The position numbers and the translations under genes were made by a program. Below the pieces are notes generated by a model. It was not told the DNA's origin. It saw only the letters and a list, made by a program, of their open reading frames with translations, and made no database searches. From NCBI RefSeq assembly GCF_004217495.1, contig NZ_SHLC01000001.1:1488001-1552000 (forward strand): a stretch of 64,000 nucleotides of DNA. Direction: 5' to 3'. Each line of letters starts with the position of its first letter. Positions within the stretch are counted from its first letter, which is position 1. Below are positions 22,614 to 34,215 of the stretch, piece after piece. This DNA is from Microterricola gilva (GTDB lineage Bacteria; Actinomycetota; Actinomycetes; Actinomycetales; Microbacteriaceae).

Positions 22614-24197
22614 TTACCCGACGAGGCGTGGGGCGTCGGCCAGCAGCTGCTCGGTGTACTCGTGCTGCGGATCGGTGAACAGCGATTCTGCCGCGCCCTG
22701 CTCGAGGATCCGGCCGCCCCGCATCACGGCGACCCGGTCGCTGAGTTGGCGGATGACGGCGAGGTCGTGCGAGATGAAGAGCATGCTGAGGCCGCGCTCC
22801 CGCTGCAGCCGGGCGAGCAACTCGAGGATCTGCGCCTGCACGGTGACGTCGAGGGCGGAGACGGGCTCGTCACAGATGAGCAGCTCCGGCTCCGCGGCGA
22901 GCGCCCTGGCGATGGAGACCCGCTGGCGTTGCCCGCCGGAGAGGGTGAGCGGATTCCGCGGCGCCAGCTCCGGCGCGAGACCGACCTGGCCGAGCAGCGA
23001 GGTCACCGTCTCCGGCCCGCGGATCGCGTCCTGCACGATCCGGCCGACACTCCAGCGCGGGTCGAAGGAGCCCAGGCTGTCCTGGTAGATCGCTCCGATC
23101 CGGTGGCGACGGCCGCGGCGCGCCTTCTCCGGAAGCGGGGACCACGGTTCGCCGTCGAGGGTGACGGTGCCGGCATCCGCCGTGGCGAGGCCGAGCAGCA
23201 GCCGGGCCAGGGTGCTCTTGCCCGAGCCGGACTCGCCGACGAGGCCGAGCGTCTGCCCGGCGTGCAGCTCGAGCGAGACGTCATCGACGGCCTGGAGCCG
23301 GCCGCCGGGCACCCGGAACGCCTTGCTCAGTCCGCGCGCCTGCAGCAGCGGCGGCGCACCGCTCTGGCCGCCAGCCGGGATAGCCGTTGCCGGCGCGGGG
23401 CGCGGCGCTGACCGGGGGATCGCCGCGATGAGCTCGCGCGTGTACGCGTGCTGCGGCTGCTCGAGGAGCCGCCTGGTTGGACCCTGCTCGACGACGCGGC
23501 CGGCACGCATCACGATGATGCGGTCGGCGAGCTGGTTGACGACGGCGAGGTCGTGGCTGATCAGCAGGATCCCGGTGCCCTGCTCCTTCACCTCGGCCAG
23601 GAGGGCGAGGATCCGCGCCTGCACGCTGACGTCGAGCGCGGTCGTCGGCTCATCGGCGATGAGCACCGGCGGGTTCAGCGCCAGCGCCGCGGCGATGAGT
23701 GCGCGCTGGCGCAGACCGCCGCTCAGCTCGCCTGACCGCTGACGGATGGCCTGTTCCGGGTTCGGCATCGCCACCCGCTCCAGCAGGCGAAGCACCCGCG
23801 CGTGGGTCTCCGCCGCGCCCGGCCGTTCGTGCAGGCGGATCGCGTCGCCGATCTCGCGGCCGATCGGGCGCAGCGGGTCGAGCGAGACGAGCGCGTCCTG
23901 CAGCACGAGCCCGACCTCGCGGCCGCGGACGCCGCGCCACGCGCGTTCGCTCGCTCCCAGGCGGTCGGTGCCGAGAAGCTCCAGCCGCTCAGCCAGCACG
24001 GCGGCGTTCGGCCCGGCGAGCCCGAGCAGTGCGCGCGCGGTGACACTCTTGCCCGATCCGGACTCGCCGACGATCGCGAGGCATTCGCCGGCGTGCAGGC
24101 TGAGGTCGACGTCGTGCACGACGGTGCCATGAGCGAAGCTCACGCTCAGGCCGGCCACATCGAGCAGGGGAGTCGTGCTCCCGGGTGTTGTGGTCAT
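22614..24197 (-). CDS. ABC importer ATPase, two fused domains (Dpp/Opp/Nik type)
   Basis: A 527-residue protein with two complete nucleotide-binding domains, equivalent to DppD and DppF joined. The first has GESGSGKSVT near residue 41 and the signature LSGGLRQRALIA; the second has GESGSGKSTL near residue 325 and LSGGQRQRVSIA. Both have DEPTTALDV or DEPVSALDV Walker B loops. The Ala/Pro/Gly-rich linker lies around residue 260. Last gene of the four-gene importer operon; its ATG overlaps the preceding stop by 4 nt. Confidence 0.93.
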   Translation of the reverse strand: MTTTPGSTTPLLDVAGLSVSFAHGTVVHDVDLSLHAGECLAIVGESGSGKSVTARALLGLAGPNAAVLAERLELLGTDRLGASERAWRGVRGREVGLVLQDALVSLDPLRPIGREIGDAIRLHERPGAAETHARVLRLLERVAMPNPEQAIRQRSGELSGGLRQRALIAAALALNPPVLIADEPTTALDVSVQARILALLAEVKEQGTGILLISHDLAVVNQLADRIIVMRAGRVVEQGPTRRLLEQPQHAYTRELIAAIPRSAPRPAPATAIPAGGQSGAPPLLQARGLSKAFRVPGGRLQAVDDVSLELHAGQTLGLVGESGSGKSTLARLLLGLATADAGTVTLDGEPWSPLPEKARRGRRHRIGAIYQDSLGSFDPRWSVGRIVQDAIRGPETVTSLLGQVGLAPELAPRNPLTLSGGQRQRVSIARALAAEPELLICDEPVSALDVTVQAQILELLARLQRERGLSMLFISHDLAVIRQLSDRVAVMRGGRILEQGAAESLFTDPQHEYTEQLLADAPRLVG

Positions 24198-25042
24198 GAC
24201 CGTCCTCCGATCCTGGTCAGCGCGCGGCCGAGCACGGTGCTGGCGACGGTGGTGAGCACGATCATCAATCCGGGGAAGACGGTGAGCCACCATGCCGTTC
24301 CGATATAGGTGCGGCCAGCCGAGAGCATGGCCCCCCACTCCGCGGTCGGCGGCAGAGCGCCGAGCCCGAGGAAGCTGAGCGCCGAGGCCCAGACGATGGC
24401 CTGTCCGATGCCGAGCGTGGCGAGCACGAGCAGCGGGGCGAGGGCGTTCGGCAGGATGTGGCGGCCCAGGATCCGGGAGGGCGGGTGGCCGAGCACGCGT
24501 GCGGCCTCGACGTAGCCGGATGACCGGATGCCGATGAGCTGGCCGCGGATGATGCGGGCGTAGCCGGGGGCCGTCGAGAGCCCGACCGCGATCGTCGCCG
24601 TGACCGGGCCCGGCCCGGCGATGACGATGACGAGCAGGGCAAGCAGCAGGCCGGGGAAGGCGAAGAGCACCTCGACCGTGCGATTGACGGTGAAGTCGAA
24701 GAAGCGCCCGCCGAATGCGGCGAGAACGGCGAGGATGAGCCCGAGCACGAGTCCGATCGCGGTCGCGGCGAGGCCGATCAGCAGCGAGTTCGCGGTGCCG
24801 AACACGACGCGGCTGTAGACGTCGCGACCGGATTCGTCCGTGCCGAACCAGTGCGCGGGCGATGGGCCGGAGAACGCCTCCTTCGGTGCGATCTGGTTCG
24901 GGTCGGCGGTTGCGACGGCATCCGGGAACAGGCAGGCGGCCAGCAGGTAGAGCGCGAACAGCCCGGCCAGCAGCGTTCCGACGCGGATCCGCCCGCGCGG
25001 CGCATGGCCGGCGACGACGCCGCGGAGTTCGAGTTCGCTCAT
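24194..25042 (-). CDS. ABC importer permease, DppC/OppC type
   Basis: A 282-residue inner-membrane permease with about six helices. The soluble GTDESGRDVYSRVVFGTANSL segment and the EAA loop (YVEAARVLGHPPSRILGRHILPN) are typical of the DppC half of peptide or nickel importers. The ATG at 25042 overlaps the upstream permease stop by 4 nt; the frame is open further upstream, but those codons lie inside the other permease gene. Confidence 0.93.
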   Translation of the reverse strand: MSELELRGVVAGHAPRGRIRVGTLLAGLFALYLLAACLFPDAVATADPNQIAPKEAFSGPSPAHWFGTDESGRDVYSRVVFGTANSLLIGLAATAIGLVLGLILAVLAAFGGRFFDFTVNRTVEVLFAFPGLLLALLVIVIAGPGPVTATIAVGLSTAPGYARIIRGQLIGIRSSGYVEAARVLGHPPSRILGRHILPNALAPLLVLATLGIGQAIVWASALSFLGLGALPPTAEWGAMLSAGRTYIGTAWWLTVFPGLMIVLTTVASTVLGRALTRIGGRS

Positions 25043-26001
25043 GCCCCGACCTCCTGCGGTGACGCCTGGGCCCTCTGCCGGGGGTCGACGATGGCGGATG
25101 CCGCGTCGCTCGCCAGCGTCATGAGCACGTAGACGAGTGCGACGACGAGCACGACGCCGGTGACGACGGGCACATCGCGCACGGTCACGGCCTGCACAAG
25201 TGTGCGGCCGAGCCCGGGGCGCGCGAAGATCGTCTCGACGATCACGGCGCCGGAGAGCAGGGAGCCGAGCGCCCAGCCCGAGAGCGCGACGCCGGGGATG
25301 GCCGCATGCCGGATCGCGTGCCTGGCCCTGATGCCCAGCTCGCTCTCGCCTCGCGCCCGCGCCGACAGCACGTAGGGCTGGGCGAGCGCGTCGAGCATGC
25401 TCTCCCGCATGATCGCAGCGAGGAAACCGGCGAGCGGGATGGCGAGGGTGAGCACGGGCAGGACGAGGCCGCTGAGATCCCCGGACGAGACAGGGGGCAG
25501 CCAGCCGAGGCTCGTGCTGAACACGGCGATCAGCACCGTGGCCAGCCAGAAGTGCGGCAGGGCGGCCCCGGCGAGTTCGATGCCGTGACCGACGGATGCC
25601 GCGATGCGCCCCGCCCCCGTCGAGAACAGCGCGAGGGCGATGGCGATCACCCACGCCACCAGCAGCGAGCACACCGCGAGCAGCAGCGTTCCTGGCAGCT
25701 GCGCGGCGAGCAGATCGGCCACGGGGACCTTGAGCGCGTAGGAGCTGCCGAGGTCGCCGCTGAGCAGGCGCCCGAGCATCGCCGCGTACTGGACCAGGAG
25801 CGGCTGATCGAGGCCGTGCTCGCGCCTGGCCTGCTCGAGCGCCTCAGGGGATGCCTGCGAGCCAGGGCCGCCGAGGATCGCCAGCGCCGGGTCGCCGGGG
25901 ATCAGCCGCATCGCGAAGAAGGTCAGCGTTGCGACGGCCCAGAGCACGAAGACGGCGCCGGCGAGCCGGAGGAGAACCCTATTCGCTGAGCCAGGCGTCA
26001 T
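25039..26001 (-). CDS. ABC importer permease, DppB/OppB type
   Basis: A 320-residue permease. The N-terminal helix followed by FFAMRLIPGDPALAILGG, the HGLDQPLLVQY motif and the EAA-type loop (YVLSARARGESELGIRARHAIR) mark the DppB family. The ATG at 26001 overlaps the end of the binding-protein gene by 23 nt. No better start with a ribosome site is visible. Confidence 0.9.
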   Translation of the reverse strand: MTPGSANRVLLRLAGAVFVLWAVATLTFFAMRLIPGDPALAILGGPGSQASPEALEQARREHGLDQPLLVQYAAMLGRLLSGDLGSSYALKVPVADLLAAQLPGTLLLAVCSLLVAWVIAIALALFSTGAGRIAASVGHGIELAGAALPHFWLATVLIAVFSTSLGWLPPVSSGDLSGLVLPVLTLAIPLAGFLAAIMRESMLDALAQPYVLSARARGESELGIRARHAIRHAAIPGVALSGWALGSLLSGAVIVETIFARPGLGRTLVQAVTVRDVPVVTGVVLVVALVYVLMTLASDAASAIVDPRQRAQASPQEVGA

Positions 26002-27646
26002 AGAAGTTCGGCGTCGACACCGTGTTGATCGCCCTGGCACCCTGCACCTGCTTCCCCAGCAGGAAGTGGTTCTGCTGGTCGTAGAGCGGCAGAACGGTGA
26101 AGCTGCCGAGGATTCGTTCCTGCGCCTCAGCGTAGAGGGCGGCACGCTCGTCGGCGTCGAGGCTGGAGGATGCCTGGCTGAGCAGGGCGTCGAGCTCCGG
26201 GTCGTTCAGCTGGGCGAGGTTGGCGAAGTAGCCGCTCGGTGCCGGCGTGATGCTGGCAGAGTGGTAGAGGATCCGCAGCACGTCGGGCCCGACCTTGGTG
26301 TACGGCGCGCTGACGACGTCGTAGTCGTTGCTGAACAGGGCGCCGTACCAGCTGGAGAGGTCGAGCGGCGAGATGGTGACCTCGAAGCCGGCCTCTGCGG
26401 CGGTGGCCTGCACCTGCTCGAACAGGGACTGCTCGGCCGGGATCGACTGGTTCGTGCTCACCGGGAATGCGAGGGAGAGGCGTTCTCCGTTCTTCACGCG
26501 GTAGCCGTCGGCATCCGTCTCGGTCCAGCCCGCCTCGTCGAGGAGCGCCTCTGCGGCGTCGAGGTCGTGGTCGAAGAGTGCCTCGTCCGAGTAGCCGAGC
26601 GGTTCGACGCTGGAGAGGGCGGAGTATGAACGCTCCGCCGTGCCGAAGAACAGGGCGTCGATGCCGTCGTTGACGTCGACGGCGCGGATGAACGCCTCGC
26701 GCACGAACGGGTCGTTGAACGGGGCCTTGCCCGAGTTCAGTTCCAGGCGGTTGGAGGCACCGGGGCGGGGCGCGTCGATCTCGGTGAATGTGCCTGCGTC
26801 GGCTGCCGCGGCGAGCGTGTCCGGCTGGGCGTTGTCGATCACGTCGACCTGGCCGGCCTGCAGCGCGGCGTAGCGGGAGGCGGAGTCGGGCAGGAAGCGC
26901 CAGTCGATCGCCTCGAGGTGGGCCGGACCGCTGTGCGCGGCGTCGGCAGGTGGCGAGTTGTACTCCTCGTTGCGCACGAGCGAGACGCGGTCCTGCTTGA
27001 CCCACTCGTCAACGACGAACGGACCGGTGCCGATCGGCGCGAGGCAGTTCTCGTCGATGCCGCGGGCGATGCCCGCCGCCGACTCGATGGCAAGCCACGG
27101 CATGCTCAGCGACTCGAGCAGCGCGCTGTCCGGCGCGCTCAGGGTGAAGCGGGCGACGGTGTCGCTGACCGCCTCGACGCCGGTCACCTTGCCGAGCGCG
27201 AGGTATCCGGTGGACGAGCCGGTGGCCGGGTCCTGGATGTGCTCGACGGTCGCCTTCACATCGGCGGCGGTCAGCGGGCTGCCATCGCTGAAGCGCACGT
27301 CATCCTGCAGCGTGAAGTCCCAGCTCAGGCCGTCCTCCGAACTCGTCCAGTCGCTGGCGAGCCACGGGATGATCTCGCCGTCCTCGTCGATCGAGACGAG
27401 GGATTCGAGGTACTGGCCGGCGATCAGTGCCTGCGGGTAGTTGCCGCCGACGTGCGGGTCGAGGCAGTCCGGCTCGGCGTCGCCGCTGGCGTAGACGAGC
27501 GTGCCGCCCTCGACGGGCTCGCCGCCCGCGCTGCTCTGGGCATCGCCGCCCGGCGAGGTGCAGGCGGTGAGGAGGAGAACGGCGGATGCCGCGAGCGGCA
27601 GCAGCGAGCGGCGCAGTGTCGTGGCGGTGGTGGGGGACGCAGGCAT
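25979..27646 (-). CDS. ABC importer substrate-binding lipoprotein (SBP_bac_5)
   Basis: A 555-residue extracytoplasmic solute receptor. It has a lipoprotein signal ending in LLTAC with the lipid Cys at about residue 29, then the family core: WTSSEDGLSWDFTLQDDVRF near residue 100 and GTGPFVVDEWVKQD. The family binds oligopeptides, nickel or other small ligands, and the ligand cannot be told here. The ATG at 27646 has an AAGGA site. It heads the importer operon and is divergent from a YtrA-like GntR regulator 136 bp away, which may control it. Confidence 0.93.
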   Translation of the reverse strand: MPASPTTATTLRRSLLPLAASAVLLLTACTSPGGDAQSSAGGEPVEGGTLVYASGDAEPDCLDPHVGGNYPQALIAGQYLESLVSIDEDGEIIPWLASDWTSSEDGLSWDFTLQDDVRFSDGSPLTAADVKATVEHIQDPATGSSTGYLALGKVTGVEAVSDTVARFTLSAPDSALLESLSMPWLAIESAAGIARGIDENCLAPIGTGPFVVDEWVKQDRVSLVRNEEYNSPPADAAHSGPAHLEAIDWRFLPDSASRYAALQAGQVDVIDNAQPDTLAAAADAGTFTEIDAPRPGASNRLELNSGKAPFNDPFVREAFIRAVDVNDGIDALFFGTAERSYSALSSVEPLGYSDEALFDHDLDAAEALLDEAGWTETDADGYRVKNGERLSLAFPVSTNQSIPAEQSLFEQVQATAAEAGFEVTISPLDLSSWYGALFSNDYDVVSAPYTKVGPDVLRILYHSASITPAPSGYFANLAQLNDPELDALLSQASSSLDADERAALYAEAQERILGSFTVLPLYDQQNHFLLGKQVQGARAINTVSTPNFYDAWLSE

Positions 27647-27747
27647 GCAGGAATCCTTGCTGGGGAGGAGGCAGAGAGGTGCGGGCGGCGGGGTGTTCTC
27701 GCGCGCCAGTGCAATCATGGCACCGGAATCGGGCCCTCGGCCTCAAC

Positions 27748-27776
27748 TTGTTATAGTTCAGCTATAACAATAGAAT
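27748..27776 (+). promoter_or_regulatory. Operator-promoter of the GntR gene
   Basis: TTGTTATAG (27748-27756) and its exact complement CTATAACAA (27762-27770) are separated by 5 bp. TTGTTA doubles as a -35 and is followed, after exactly 17 bp, by TAGAAT (27771-27776), which ends 6 nt before the GTG start. The palindrome therefore fills the -35 and spacer, the layout expected for autorepression by a YtrA-type regulator. Confidence 0.8.
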
Positions 27777-27782
27777 CGCATC

Positions 27783-28133
27783 GTGCTGATTCGCATCGAC
27801 CCCACTCTCTCCATGCCGCTGTTCGAGCAGCTGGCGACGAGCATCCGCGCCTCGATCATCGACGGCCGACTCAGTGTCGGCGAGCGGTTGCTGCCGGCGC
27901 GGCAACTCGCGGAGGCGCTCGACATCAACGTGCACACCGTGCTGCGGGCCTACCAGATCCTCCGGGAGGAGGGGTTGCTGGACATGCGTCCTGGCCGCGG
28001 GGCGATCGTCGCCGGCCGCATCGGCCAGCACGCCGCGCTCGCCGGCGCCATCCACGACCTGGTCGACGAGGCCAAACTCCGCAACATTTCCGAGAGTGCT
28101 CTGCTCTCGCTCATCCGAGAGGCTTACAAGTGA
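27783..28133 (+). CDS. GntR-family regulator, YtrA subfamily
   Basis: A 116-residue protein: an N-terminal winged helix (PLFEQLATSIRASIIDGRL, LLPARQLAEALDINVHTVLRAY, EEGLLDMRPGRGAIV) and only a short C-terminal helical tail, as in the YtrA branch, which lacks a large ligand domain. The GTG start lies 6 nt after a -10, so the mRNA is probably leaderless. Its stop overlaps the next gene by 4 nt (GTGA). Likely targets are its own operon and perhaps the divergent importer. Confidence 0.92.
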   Translation: MLIRIDPTLSMPLFEQLATSIRASIIDGRLSVGERLLPARQLAEALDINVHTVLRAYQILREEGLLDMRPGRGAIVAGRIGQHAALAGAIHDLVDEAKLRNISESALLSLIREAYK

Positions 28134-29158
28134 GCAACACATCCACCCCGTCCTTCTCCGTGACCGGCGCCGAACAGGCCCGCGTCACGCGCTCGCGCGT
28201 CATTCTGCTCGGAATCGTCGTGCCGATCGTGCTCGCAGCGGCCGGTGCCCTCCTCATGATCAGCTGGATTCCTGAGCTGCCGAGCCCCGTCGCGACCCAC
28301 TGGGGCGCTGACGGGGTCAACGGCACGGGAAGCCCGTGGCTGCTGGCCGTCACGCCGCTCGGCATCACGGTGCTCTTCTCGGTGTTCGTGTACCTCGGCG
28401 CGCTGCGCGAGTCGACGCCAAGCGGCCTGCCGACCGTGAACCAGAAGTTCATCGCCGCGATGGGCCCCGGTCTGGCGCTCTTCCTCACGATCGGCATCGG
28501 CGGTTCGGTTGCCACTCAGCGAGGTCTGGACTCGGCGGCCGCCGCCCCTGACCCGTGGCTGTGGCTCGTCGCCGGCGGTGTGCTCGGGGTGGCGCTCGCC
28601 GCAGTGGTCTGGCTGGTGCTTCCCCGCGCCGACCGTTCCGGGCCGGAGGCGCTGCCCGTCGAGACGCTCGAGGTTGCGGCCACCGAGCGTCTGTTCTGGA
28701 CGGGCATGGTGTCGATGGCGCCGCTCGGCCTCGCGCTGATCGGAGCGGCGGTCGGCATCCTCATCGTCTCCGCGATACTCGCCGCCTTCGCAGGATCCGG
28801 GGTCGCCGTCCTCGTCATCGCCGTGACCCTGGTGTTGTTCGGCGCCGCCGTGACGACCCTGCGCTGGCGGGTCAGTGTCGGCGGTCATGGCCTCTCGGTC
28901 GTCTCGATCGCCGGCTGGCCGGCCGTTCGCGTCGCCATCGACGAGGTGACCGCCGCACGACTGATCGATGTCAACCCGGTCGGCGACTTCGGCGGCTGGG
29001 GATGGCGCTGGGCCGGCGGCCGCACGGGCATCATCCTGCAGGGCGGGCCGGCCATCGAGGTGACCCGGCGCTCTGGACGCACGCTCGTCGTGCCCGTCGA
29101 CGATGCGGAGACCGCCGTCGCCGTGCTGCAGGCCGCCATCGCCCAGCGCGACGCCTAG
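28130..29158 (+). CDS. DUF1648 membrane protein
   Basis: A 342-residue membrane protein with about six hydrophobic segments. The PSPVATHWGADGVNGTGSP stretch after the first helix is the DUF1648 hallmark, and the C-terminal third is soluble (ITRRS-like strands ending QAAIAQRDA). GTG at 28130 overlaps the regulator stop. A YtrA regulator plus DUF1648 protein is a recurring pair in Gram-positives, often linked to cell-envelope stress. The frame is open far upstream, but that part is antisense to the importer and not coding. Confidence 0.88.
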   Translation: MSNTSTPSFSVTGAEQARVTRSRVILLGIVVPIVLAAAGALLMISWIPELPSPVATHWGADGVNGTGSPWLLAVTPLGITVLFSVFVYLGALRESTPSGLPTVNQKFIAAMGPGLALFLTIGIGGSVATQRGLDSAAAAPDPWLWLVAGGVLGVALAAVVWLVLPRADRSGPEALPVETLEVAATERLFWTGMVSMAPLGLALIGAAVGILIVSAILAAFAGSGVAVLVIAVTLVLFGAAVTTLRWRVSVGGHGLSVVSIAGWPAVRVAIDEVTAARLIDVNPVGDFGGWGWRWAGGRTGIILQGGPAIEVTRRSGRTLVVPVDDAETAVAVLQAAIAQRDA

Positions 29159-29165
29159 CGCCCCC

Positions 29166-29227
29166 GCGCGGTAGAAACCGCGTTCCGCTGCAGTTGTTTC
29201 TGGCGCGGAACGCGGTTTCTACCGCGC
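29166..29227. terminator. Terminator after DUF1648 gene, third GTAGAAAC hairpin
   Basis: Perfect 23-bp stem (29166-29188 with 29205-29227) with a 16-nt loop, 7 nt after the stop codon. The arm contains GGTAGAAACCGCG, resembling the ctaB/ctaA hairpins in the TAGAAAC part. No T-run follows. Confidence 0.8.
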
Positions 29228-29267
29228 GAGCTCGGCGGCACAACGCGTGCGCCCCCGGCAGACACGC

Positions 29268-29515
29268 TATTCTGGGGAGCACAGACTGTGAACCGGCCAT
29301 CACCGGGGAGTCCTCGGAAGAAAACGATCGGATGCCGCGGCATCCGATCGCCGTAGAACCGAGCGGGGCTGGCCCGTCATAGCCAAGGAACAAGCGGTTC
29401 TCCGCCGGTCGACGTTGGCCGAGGAGGGCAAGCGAGGTGGTACCGCGGCAGAGCTCACGCTCTCCGTCCTCGTGGAAGTGGCCAACAGCATCCGTCAGCC
29501 GTCCAGGAGACACAC
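29268..29515 (+). promoter_or_regulatory. Isoleucine T-box leader (ultrashort stem I) of ileS
   Basis: A tRNA-sensing riboswitch controlling ileS. TATTCT (29268-29273) is a possible -10. Stem I is very short: GACT (29284-29287) pairs with AGTC (29309-29312) and CCGG with CCGG, presenting the Ile specifier ATC at 29299-29301. A 12-bp stem follows (29325-29336 with 29339-29350). The T-box core GGTGGTACCGCGG (29436-29448) offers TGGT to the ACCA end of tRNA-Ile. No U-run terminator follows; CU-rich TCTCC (29461-29465) can pair with GGAGA of the ribosome site (29506-29510), so control is probably translational. Confidence 0.93.
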
Positions 29516-32500
29516 GTGTACCCCAAAGGTTCGAATCCAGCATCACCCGATGCCGCAGGCGCCGCGTTCGGCGTCACCCCATCGCCCAGCTTCCCGGCGA
29601 TCGAGGAAGACGTTCTCGAGTTCTGGAAACAGGACGGCACCTTCCAGGCCTCGATCGACAACCGCGACGGCCAGCCGGAGTGGGTCTTCTACGACGGCCC
29701 GCCGTTCGCCAACGGCCTGCCGCACTACGGGCACCTCCTCACCGGCTACGCCAAGGACGTGTTCCCGCGTTACCAGACCATGCGCGGCAAGCAGGTGCAC
29801 CGCCGCTTCGGCTGGGACACCCACGGCCTGCCGGCCGAGCTCGAGGCCGAACGCCAGCTCGGTATCACCGACAAGAGCCAGATCGAGGAGATGGGCCTCG
29901 CCGCGTTCAACGGCGCTGCGCGTGAATCCGTGCTGCGCTACACCAAGGAGTGGCAGGAATACGTCACCCGCCAGGCGCGCTGGGTCGACTTCGAGAACGA
30001 CTACAAGACGCTCGATGTCACGTACATGGAGAGCGTGATCTGGGCCTTCAAGCGCCTGCACGACAAGGGCCTCGCCTACGAGGGCTACCGCGTGCTGCCG
30101 TACTGCTGGCGTGACCAGACGCCGCTCTCCAACCACGAGCTGCGCATGGACGACGACGTCTACAAGATGCGCCAGGACCAGACGGTCACCGTCACCTTCC
30201 CGCTCACCGGGCCCAGGGCCGAGTCGCTCGGCCTCACCGCCGTCCGGGCACTGGCCTGGACGACCACCCCGTGGACCCTGCCGACCAACCTCGCGCTGGC
30301 CGTCGGCCCCGAGATCGAGTACGCCGTCGTTCCTGCCGGCCCGAACGGCACACCGGATGCGACCGTTCTCCGCGAGGAGGCTGCCGGTCTCGCCCCGCAC
30401 ACCGAGGTGCTCGGCGCCGAGTACCTGTTGGCGATCGACCTCGTCGGCGGCTACGCCAAGGACCTCGGCTACGACAGCGCGGAGGAGGCCATCGCGGCCG
30501 TCTCGCGCACCGTCCGCGGCTCGGAGCTCGAGGGCGTCAGCTACGACCGCCTCTTCGACCACTACGCCGACACCGAGGAGTGGGGAACCGAGAAGGCCTG
30601 GCGCTTCGTCGTCGCCGACTACGTCACCACCTCTGACGGCACCGGCATCGTGCACCAGGCGCCCGCATACGGCGAGGAGGACCAGAAGGTCTGTGAGGCA
30701 GCCGGCATCCCCGTCATCCTCTCGCTCGACGACGGCGGCAAGTTCCTGCCCGCTGTGACGGATGTCGCCGGGCAGCTGTGGATGGACGCCAACAAGCCGC
30801 TGACGCAGCTGCTCAAGGCCGAGGGACGCCTGCTCCGCCAGGCCAGCTACGAGCACAGCTACCCGCACTGCTGGCGCTGCCGCAACCCCCTGATCTACAA
30901 GGCAGTCACGAGCTGGTTCGTGCGCGTCACCGAGTTCCGTGACCGCATGGTCGATCTGAACCAGGACGGCATCGAGTGGGTGCCGGAGAACGTCAAGGAC
31001 GGACAGTTCGGCAAGTGGGTCGGCAACGCCCGTGACTGGTCGATCAGCCGCAACCGCTACTTCGGCTCCCCGATCCCGGTGTGGAAGAGCGACAACCCCG
31101 AGTTCCCGCGCGTCGACGTCTACGGCTCCCTCGAGGAGATCCAGCGCGACTTCGGCCGACTGCCGCTGAACGCGGCGGGCGAACCCGACCTGCACCGCCC
31201 GTACATCGATGAGCTCACCCGCCCGAACCCCGACGACCCGAGCGGCCAGTCGACGATGCGCCGCATCTCCGACGTGCTCGACGTCTGGTTCGACTCCGGC
31301 TCGATGCCGTTCGCGCAGGTGCACTATCCATTCGAGAACGTCGAGTTCTTCGACGAGCACCACCCGGCCGACTTCATCGTCGAGTACATCGGGCAGACCC
31401 GCGGCTGGTTCTACGTCATGCACGTGCTCTCCACCGCGCTGTTCGACCGGCCGGCGTACAAGAACGTCATCAGCCACGGCATCGTGCTCGGCAGCGACGG
31501 GCAGAAGATGTCGAAGTCGCTGCGCAACTACCCCGACGTCTCCGAGGTCTTCAACCGCGACGGATCCGACGCCATGCGCTGGTTCCTCATGTCGAGTTCC
31601 GTGCTGCGCGGCGGCAACCTCGTCGTCACCGAGGAGGGTATCCGCGAGGGTGTCCGCCAGGTGATGCTGCCGCTCTGGAGCACCTGGTACTTCTTCAGCC
31701 TGTACGCCAACGCCTCGGCGAACGGCGGCTACGAGGCCAAGCTCAGCACCGCGTCAACCGATGTGCTGGACCGCTACCTGCTCGCCAAGACGCGCGCGCT
31801 CATCGAAGACGTCACAACCGACCTCGACGCCCTCGACAGCACCATGGCCGCGGCCAAGCTGCGCGACTTCGCCGACGTGCTGACCAACTGGTACGTGCGT
31901 CGCTCCCGCGACCGCTTCTGGGCCGGCGTCGGCGCGGACGGCGGCAACAGTGAGGCATTCGACACGCTCTACACCGTGCTCGAGACGTACACCAGGGTCG
32001 CGGCGCCGCTGCTGCCACTCATCAGCGAGCGCATCTGGCAGGGCCTCACCGGCGGCCGCAGCGTGCACCTCGAGGACTGGCCGGATGCCGCATCCTTCCC
32101 GGCCGACGACGCCCTCGTCGCCGCGATGGACCAGGTGCGCGCCATCTCCGGTGCCGCCCTCTCGCTGCGCAAGCAGTCCGGTCTGCGCGTGCGCCTCCCG
32201 CTCGCGAAGCTCACCGTCGTGGCATCCGCCACAGCCGATCTCGCCGAGTTCGCCGCGATCGTGCGCGAGGAGCTCAACGTCAAGGCGGTCGAGTTCGTCG
32301 AGCTCGCCGAGGACAGCGCAGCCGCTTACGGCATCACCAGCAAGCTCACCGTCAACGCCCGCGCGGCCGGCCCGCGCCTCGGCAAGGGCGTGCAGCAGGT
32401 CATCCAGGCCGCCCGCAACGGTGACTGGAGCGAACTGGACGGCGTCGTCACCGCCGGCGGGGTCGAACTCGTCTCCGGCGAGTACGAGCTCGTGCTCGAG

Positions 32501-32845
32501 ACGGCATCCGGTGGTGCCGACCAGGCACTCGCCCTGCTGCCAGGCGGAGGCTTCGTGCTGCTCGACACGGCCACGACGGCCGAGCTGGAGGCCGAGGGCC
32601 TGGCCCGCGACGTCATCCGAGCAGTCCAGGATGCCCGCAAGGCCGCCGGTCTCGAGGTCAGCGACCGCATCCGGTTGACGCTCGGCGTGTCGGAGGACGG
32701 CCGGGCCGCCGTGCAGCAGCACGCGGAGTTGATCGCGGGGGAGACCCTCGCGACGGACGTGTCCGTCAACGGGGCCGCCGGCGGCGCAGCGCTGCTGCAG
32801 CTCGCCGGAGGCGCCTCCGTGGCAATCGAGGTGGAGAAGGCATGA
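29516..32845 (+). CDS. ileS: Isoleucyl-tRNA synthetase, long eukaryote-like type
   Basis: A 1109-residue class I synthetase charging tRNA-Ile. The HIGH-type motif reads HYGH near residue 70 ([15 protein letters not shown]), KMSKS lies near residue 664 ([12 protein letters not shown]), and [12 protein letters not shown] is the long, eukaryote-like version found in mycobacteria and other actinobacteria. In that subclass natural tolerance to mupirocin is common; whether it applies here is inference. GTG start with CAGGAGA ribosome site, controlled by the T-box. folC overlaps its stop by 4 nt. Confidence 0.97.
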
Positions 32846-34215
32846 GCGAGAACATCTACGACGAGTTCGAGGAGGCGGCAGACGCCGTCTACCGCGCGCT
32901 CCTCAAGCGCATCGGCGAGGTGAACCCGCAGCCTCGGCTCGAGCCGACCCGCCGCGCCCTGGAGCTGCTGGGTGACCCGCAGCGTTCCTTCCCGATGATC
33001 CACGTCACGGGCACCAACGGCAAGACGAGCACGAGCCGCATGATCGAGAGCCTCCTGCGTGCGCACGGCCTCCGCACCGGCCTCATGACGAGCCCGCACC
33101 TGGTCCGCTTCAACGAGCGCATCATGATCGACGGCGAGCCCATCGGCAACGAGGCCCTCGCCGCGAACTGGGCGGACATCGCGCCGTACATCGCCATGGT
33201 CGACTCCGAGCTCGTCGCAGCAGGCGACGTGCCGCTGACCTTCTTCGAGGCGCTGACGGTGCTGGCGTTCGCCTGCTTCGCCGACGCGCCAGTCGACGTC
33301 GCCGTCGTCGAGGTCGGCATGGGCGGCGAGTGGGACTCCACCAATGTCGCCGACGGCCAGGTCGCCGTCTTCGCCCCGATCGCCCTCGACCACATCGGTC
33401 GACTCGGCAACGACATCTCCGAGATCGCCAGGACGAAGTCGGGCATCATCAAGCCGTCCGCGGCCGTCGTGTCGGCCGTGCAGACGCCGGAGGCCCTCGC
33501 CGAGCTGCAGCGCGCGGTCGAGCTCACCGAATCGACGTTGGCCGTTCAGGGCGAGGCATCCGGCTTCGAGCTGCTCAGCAGCACGATCGCCGTCGGCGGG
33601 CAGCTGATCAGCGTCCGAGGCCTCGCCGGCAGCTACAGCGAGCAGTTCCTGCCGCTCTACGGCAGCCACCAGGCGCAGAACGCGGCCGTCGCGATCGCCG
33701 CGGTCGAGGCGTTCCTCGGCGGCGGCTCCCAGGCCATCGCCGACGACATCGTGACGGAGGGCCTCAGCGGCGTGACGTCACCGGGTCGCCTGCAGCTGGT
33801 CGGCATCGAGCCGACCGTGATTGTGGATGCCGCACACAACCCGCACGGGGCAGAGGCACTCGTCACCGCGCTCACGAGCTTCTTCGACTTCGACGAGATC
33901 GCCTTCGTGCTCGGCATCCTGGAAGACAAGGACGCCGCAGGCATCATCCGCGCGATCGCCCCGGCTGCCGCGCGCATCCACGTGACGCGGTCGAGTTCCG
34001 AACGCGCCATCGGCGTCGACGAACTCGCCGACACGGTGGTGGACATCGGCCGCGACGACGCGACGTTCCGCTTCGACGACCTCGAGACGGCCATCGAACA
34101 GGCTCGCCGCTGGGCGGCCGACGCCCCGCGCCGTGCCGTCGTCGTCACCGGCTCGATCACCCTCGTCGGTGAGGCGCTGTCCCTGGCCGCTGCCGGCGAT
34201 TGGATGAACCCGTGA
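32842..34215 (+). CDS. folC: Folylpolyglutamate synthase / dihydrofolate synthase
   Basis: A 457-residue Mur-ligase-family enzyme that adds glutamate to dihydropteroate and folates. P-loop GTNGKTS at residues 57-63, [25 protein letters not shown] and the C-terminal [12 protein letters not shown] motif. ATG overlaps the ileS stop (ATGA) and its TGA overlaps the next GTG. The order folC-DUF4233-ndk is conserved in actinobacteria. Confidence 0.96.

Follow-up and report, generated by a model that had tools for sequence, protein, structure and literature searches.

A candidate YtrA-type operator kept in phase with a divergent transporter promoter at one syntenic locus of Microbacteriaceae

According to the sections of PMC4494728 that deal with YtrA regulators, most regulons of this type within the GntR family consist of a single operon of ABC transporter genes, a divergent organisation is 'very rare', and sites lie 'almost never' between divergent operons, YtrA having been left out of the divergon analysis. 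For divergons of the FadR and HutC types of GntR regulator, the same sections state that a single site between the operons usually regulates both. YtrA sites are long palindromes of ~24 bp, and YtrASa of Sulfolobus acidocaldarius represses the operon that encodes it and one further gene for a membrane protein, as described in the excerpts of PMC6746942 on which we draw. The locus described here lies in a 64,000-nucleotide stretch of Microterricola gilva DNA, which was analysed as a whole and is referred to as the window. Like the YtrA autorepressors (Bacillus subtilis YtrA and YtrASa), it encodes a GntR protein of small size whose C-terminal part forms two helices; the gene heads an operon that also encodes a membrane protein, and a palindrome lies over its promoter region. 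Unlike the YtrASa site, which lies over the transcription start and for which those excerpts of PMC6746942 tell of no divergent partner, the site in the window covers the -35 and spacer of an apparently leaderless promoter and belongs to a divergon whose other arm is an ABC importer and whose spacing has been kept. A single site between divergent operons, here recognised from sequence alone, is shared with the FadR and HutC divergons as treated in those sections of PMC4494728, and the comparison suggests that the locus is a conserved exception to the single-operon habit of YtrA regulators reported there. Among the literature matches listed (titles and the beginnings of abstracts), there was no description of a YtrA operator in phase with a divergent importer.

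Two other B. subtilis systems offer partial parallels. SdpI carries a DUF1648 region and adjoins SdpR, which is not a GntR protein; in pairs of this type the membrane partner sequesters the repressor when it binds a toxin. GabR, a GntR-family autorepressor of the MocR type, also activates another gene. The window resembles GabR in its proposed GntR-family autorepressor and differs from it in that the large aminotransferase-like domain of GabR is absent from the window protein. With sdpRI (SdpI and SdpR as treated in the passages of PMC11995493) it may share the pairing of a repressor gene with a DUF1648-like membrane protein gene, but, unlike sdpRI, the Agromyces and g26 loci of the clade defined below lack a DUF1648 gene behind gntR.

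The regulator gene, gntR, occupies 27783 to 28133 on the plus strand, starts with GTG, is leaderless by its layout and encodes 116 amino acids. The N-terminal part of its product matches the GntR winged helix-turn-helix (PF00392, 47.4 bits against a cut-off of 27), and an AlphaFold model made with a 26-sequence alignment (mean pLDDT 85.8) predicts the winged helix followed by helices at residues 81-99 and 104-115. These two features bear out the YtrA-like identity assigned in an earlier, sequence-only reading of this DNA, and the model supports the YtrA plan of a short protein with two C-terminal helices. A Foldseek search against the PDB placed YtrA-type structures among the best matches, including YtrASa 6sbs (TM score by query 0.62) and C. 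glutamicum 2du9 (0.56) and 2ek5 (0.44-0.54), with modest full-length TM scores (0.44-0.66 by query) and large rmsd. The window is close to Leifsonia sp. Root4 (97% identity of the GntR protein) and Microterricola pindariensis (92%). The end of gntR is overlapped by the gene for a DUF1648-like membrane protein of 342 amino acids (28130 to 29158, plus strand; Pfam and hydropathy segments), which puts gntR at the head of an operon that also encodes a membrane protein, as is characteristic of YtrA regulators and their ABC transporters or membrane proteins. The DUF1648 score in the window, 26.8 bits, falls just below the curated cut-off of 28.7, which is exceeded by two of four relatives (26.8, 30.7, 28.1 and 33.2 bits).

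Facing gntR on the minus strand is an importer operon, and the whole importer-gntR locus sits between valS and ileS. It encodes a solute-binding lipoprotein of 555 amino acids (SBP_bac_5; 25979 to 27646, assigned from the open reading frame, Pfam and relatives), permease 1 (25039 to 26097; open reading frame and family search), permease 2 (24194 to 25042, within a longer open reading frame; placed by a similar stretch beside the importer in relatives) and an ATPase with two ABC domains (22614 to 24200; open reading frame and family search), the starts of the last three being approximate. The lipoprotein ATG at 27646 is indeed 102 bp from the operator, as the earlier reading had it. The range 24194-27646 that it gave for the importer does hold importer genes and misses the ATPase gene at ~22614-24200.

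The DNA from 27748 to 27770 reads TTGTTATAGTTCAGCTATAACAA, a perfect palindrome, TTGTTATAG-TTCAG-CTATAACAA, with 9-bp arms and a 5-nt loop, and it is taken as the candidate operator, TTGTTATAG-N5-CTATAACAA, on the basis of its sequence and conservation. Its 23 bp agree with the ~24-bp palindrome with distant half sites that is typical of YtrA. The -35-like hexamer TTGTTA of the gntR promoter (27748 to 27753, plus strand) lies within the left arm, the remainder of the palindrome fills the 17-nt promoter spacer (27754 to 27770), and the -10 hexamer TAGAAT (27771 to 27776, plus strand; TA...T in relatives) abuts the right arm. Only the 6 nt CGCATC (27777-27782) stand between TAGAAT and the gntR GTG at 27783, a distance of ~6 nt from -10 to start codon that would fit a leaderless gene. 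The exact overlay of the palindrome on TTGTTA-17-TAGAAT-6-GTG, proposed previously, was confirmed at 27748-27783.

A perfect 9-bp inverted repeat is not rare by itself, since the window has 19 listed pairs with loops of 3-8, of which many represent one repeat in overlapping registers. An A/T content of 7/9 in the arms is unique to the operator repeat, the remaining pairs listed having at most 4/9. With up to three mismatches allowed, the operator pattern matched nowhere else in the window, and 100 shuffles gave no match at all. A genome search for extra copies, suggested in the earlier reading, was run and found none in the organism's own 3.67 Mb. A relaxed form matched four other places with three mismatches versus 10 for a reversed control pattern, so that there is no sign of a second operator in this genome, and candidate second sites were rejected as nothing exceeded the three-mismatch background. 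What raises the operator above chance is its conservation across related loci.

Conservation was scored over 97 Microbacteriaceae gntR loci, made up of 71 from a search of 199 genomes of the family (71 genomes gave 73 matches at E <= 1e-15, from which two duplicates were dropped), 25 of the 27 loci from a further relative search, and a distant paralogue from the window's own genome (L032), kept as a contrast and counted as a miss. Excluded as duplicates were L001 (same place as L002) and L003 and L004 (on the contigs of L038 and L039); also outside the counts are the weaker own-genome paralogues L033-L037, L065-L068, the loci L069-L097 from the scan of genomes for operator matches, the distant L063 and L064 and four second-site loci (L098-L101). 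In the 150 nt upstream of the gntR start, a site matching the reference TTGTTCTAG-N5-CTAGAACAA at 13 or more of its 18 positions was found in 72 of the 97 loci versus 4 of 1,940 shuffled regions; L032 scores 8. A site conserved in this way beside the regulator gene fits the autorepression predicted from the layout. Sites of at least 13/18 end 11-13 nt before the gntR start in 51 of the 97 loci, and the leaderless layout is upheld by a TA...T hexamer directly 3' of the operator in 49 of 51 loci where the end of the best site is 12 or 13 nt upstream of the start. The best-conserved form across loci is TTGTTCTA-N7-TAGAACAA; the core arms are put at 8 bp because the pairing of position 9 with its counterpart is not conserved, and covariation between the arms is weak, being reached by 32 of 2,000 shuffles. 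No promoter element is expected in a promoter spacer, and the right arm, which lies there, is conserved as well as or better than the left arm in the 52 class A loci (a list that leaves out L038 and L039). Elsewhere the register differs: in six loci 4 nt separate the best site from the start and the right arm contains TAGAAT or TATAAT, and in 16 loci the best site is at -1 or -2 (scores 9-13), many of these loci having a variant palindrome over the -10. The registers in which operator and promoter overlap are thus several, and such overlap would be expected of an autorepressor. A separate observation concerns five loci (L134, L136, L137, L138 and L140), where a variant palindrome TTGTTCGCAT...ATGCGAACA, with small changes between loci, ends at the gntR start codon and has a -10-like sequence at its centre.

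The genes around these regulators vary. Across the 97 loci, a DUF1648 gene lies downstream of gntR in 73, an importer abuts divergently in 16 and both are present in four, all four from the window's own group; an ABC ATPase-like gene is found further downstream of gntR in four loci. Eight further Agromyces loci have a different divergent gene, which is an MFS transporter in the one tested (L045) and was judged MFS by eye in the other seven from the common start of the coding sequence. In a tree of 99 GntR proteins, which omits L032 and L120, adds four Agromyces paralogues and has few columns and long branches among the other rows, the 24 importer and MFS loci form one side of a branch with support of 100/99. 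This clade comprises the Microterricola group, Agromyces and the genus g26. Its 18 Agromyces and two g26 loci have no DUF1648 match behind gntR; the operator is degenerate in three of the Agromyces loci (L055, L056 and L058) and a variant matching at 12/18 in the two g26 loci. Nine additional Agromyces gntR paralogue loci comprise four with DUF1648 and a variant operator (L165-L168) and five without a DUF1648 match. The two g26 genomes (loci L006, L008, L102 and L110) have two gntR paralogues each, one by the importer and the other with DUF1648; the importer-side operator is a variant ending in CTCAA, the DUF1648-side operator is nearer the common form, and the two are perhaps insulated specificities.

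On the importer side of the palindrome, the extended -10 TGCCATGAT of a proposed divergent promoter occupies 27714 to 27722 on the minus strand (hexamer 27719-27714; sequence and relatives), and the hexamer is separated by 28 nt (27720 to 27747) from the operator, which does not overlap it. In 21 of the 24 clade loci, namely all 16 importer loci and five of the eight MFS loci, precisely 28 nt separate an extended -10 of this kind (TGN-CAGGAT, TGN-CATGAT and similar, minus strand) from the operator. The spacing is 37 nt in L055, L056 and L058, one Agromyces subgroup with a degenerate operator. At 28 nt the element occurs in none of 53 other gntR loci, where the density of the pattern, defined only after inspection of these same sequences, is 0.04 per 160 nt. 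The length of the spacer is kept and little of its sequence. Over the 21 loci, the 25 nt between extended -10 and operator have a mean identity of 0.44 between Microterricola and Agromyces and of 0.18 and 0.22 between g26 and the Microterricola and Agromyces groups, as compared to 0.31 expected by composition and 0.55-0.70 for the operator itself. By this measure the spacer sequence has diverged completely towards g26 and in part between Microterricola and Agromyces. That the length persists with so little of the sequence suggests that the phase of operator and divergent promoter is under selection, possibly via regulator contact or via competition of two polymerases. From the -10 to the importer start, the 16 importer loci have 10 different lengths, from 49 to 68 nt. 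The divergent -10 is credible because, as judged by eye, an in-frame GTG follows 6-8 nt behind it in six of the eight MFS loci (L044, L050, L053, L055, L056 and L058), as in a leaderless gene. The 28-nt phase, which comes from sequence comparison, strengthens the earlier suggestion that the importer may be a regulon partner.

Given what is seen directly at these loci, namely the palindrome, the promoter geometry, their conservation, the 28-nt phase and synteny, we consider it probable that one operator is the switch for both gntR-DUF1648 autorepression and the importer promoter; we infer binding by GntR, autorepression, an effect of either sign on the importer and a signal. A GntR dimer on 27748-27770 would lie over both the -35 and the spacer in the apparently leaderless promoter of gntR-DUF1648, with the site centre at about -24, and by excluding polymerase it would cause the operon to repress itself. 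The centre of the same dimer would lie ~52 bp upstream of the expected importer start (+1 being 7 nt after the -10 hexamer), with the two expected transcript starts ~76 bp apart, and because it would sit near the importer promoter, one bound dimer could act there too, by contact or polymerase competition. The explanation by a shared switch is favoured by the constant position of the operator in front of gntR, irrespective of what stands further upstream. It is countered by the position of the operator clear of the importer -10, which may leave the importer unaffected, and by the 28-nt spacing, which could serve two back-to-back promoters rather than the regulator or be partly inherited, as an identity of 0.44 exceeds the 0.31 expected.

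In the strongest rival, GntR controls only gntR-DUF1648 and the importer is a bystander brought adjacent by loss of an intervening tetR gene. Most loci do have the site before gntR-DUF1648 without an abutting importer, and the clear importer -10 is again in its favour. We nonetheless judge pure autorepression unlikely: the 28-nt length is kept in three genera despite a poorly conserved spacer sequence, and the 18 Agromyces and two g26 loci have no DUF1648 behind gntR, yet there the regulator and a palindrome, which is degenerate in three loci and a variant in two, stand opposite a transporter gene. Activation is a further alternative that we regard as rather unlikely. While repressing itself, GntR bound near -52 would here aid polymerase on an importer promoter that has an extended -10 but a poor -35, in the manner of GabR and gabT. 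Activators do use sites centred near -52, and the hexamer at the importer -35 position is unlike TTGACA in the Microterricola group and g26 (GGCCGA, GGTCCG, GTGCCG, CCGGAT and GGCGAT). In contrast, the Agromyces loci with 28-nt spacing have a good -35 (TTGTCG and similar). Extended -10 promoters need no -35, which also counts against activation, and YtrA regulators are described as repressors in the excerpts of PMC6746942. As to the sign of the importer effect under a shared switch, co-repression is slightly favoured over activation. That the palindrome is only promoter sequence, or another protein's site with GntR binding elsewhere, is very improbable, given that the conserved arms reach into the spacer, that an operator with at most one mismatch occurs anywhere in 31 of 71 genomes with gntR versus 6 of 128 without (hand count), and that paralogous gntR loci have variant palindromes of the same length.

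How the shared arrangement may have arisen was followed through the importer, a close relative of whose protein is present in 79 of the 199 family genomes. The set of importer upstream regions (n=72) consists of 70 importers of those 79 genomes (30 plus 40 loci) and two from Agromyces, eight of the 72 belonging to the clade; the importers of nine genomes and two weaker second matches lie outside it, and the start codons of L177, L185, L193 and L203 were set by hand. No operator of at least 14/18 was found upstream of any of the 64 importers outside the clade. A tetR-like gene is divergent from and adjoins the importer in 41 of these 64 loci, within the available DNA and with one protein Pfam-tested. 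Twenty genomes were read out towards ileS. The order is importer-tetR-gntR-DUF1648-ileS in five; in four, the importer is followed after ~1 to 4.3 kb by gntR-DUF1648-ileS, with no tetR found by the queries used; nine have importer-tetR-ileS without gntR, and two have importer and ileS with neither regulator. The window has importer-gntR-DUF1648-ileS, and Agromyces has either importer-gntR-ileS or valS-MFS-gntR-ileS, seven Agromyces loci coming from this readout and others from a separate inspection. At E <= 1e-60 the importer found no match in seven of the eight MFS-type genomes, and the eighth gave only a 34% match, two importer-type controls being matched, which suggests that the importer was swapped for an MFS transporter in some Agromyces.

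Across genomes, these orders form a plausible series in which a gntR unit arrived next to tetR, the tetR gene then disappeared, and the transporter gained gntR as its local partner. We tentatively propose that, at a single syntenic locus, control of the importer passed from a local regulator of the TetR type to a YtrA-type autorepressor: gntR-DUF1648 would have come between tetR and ileS, tetR would have been lost, and the operator would have become phase-locked with the importer promoter, a switch that then outlived DUF1648 (in Agromyces and g26) and the importer itself (MFS, in some Agromyces). With likely intermediates at one locus, replacement of a local regulator becomes traceable genome by genome.

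The importers outside the clade have a palindrome of their own. TTGGAC-N3-GTCCAA occurs at 10/12 or better upstream of 35 of the 64 (for example L195, L194 and L197), shuffles averaging 7.5 with single maxima of 8-11. It reaches 10/12 in none of the eight clade loci of the upstream set and in none of the 16 clade importers, two g26 loci reaching 9. As a site of the neighbouring TetR it was rejected, being present in 23 of 41 loci with tetR and 12 of 23 without (p=0.80), in a comparison where many upstream stretches are shorter than 900 bases and one has only 176.

Operator-like sites also occur away from gntR in other genera. Besides one in G090 and those in six genomes without this gntR, they include four that were examined (L098-L101). 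Three of the four lie before ABC ATPase genes (two Pfam-tested, the third by eye; an ABC-2 permease after one was tested) and one before a CAAX-type membrane protease gene, which for those other genomes fits the envelope or peptide theme raised in the sequence-only reading.

Between the DUF1648-like gene and ileS, an inverted repeat with 29-nt arms (29165-29228; 93% complementary, 6 nt between) is perhaps a terminator or repeat element. Rfam gave no match at gathering scores in 24000-34000, and by that test there is no known T-box or riboswitch before ileS. Upstream of ileS, 29325-29350 form a perfect 13-bp inverted repeat with no loop, CGATCGGATGCCG/CGGCATCCGATCG.
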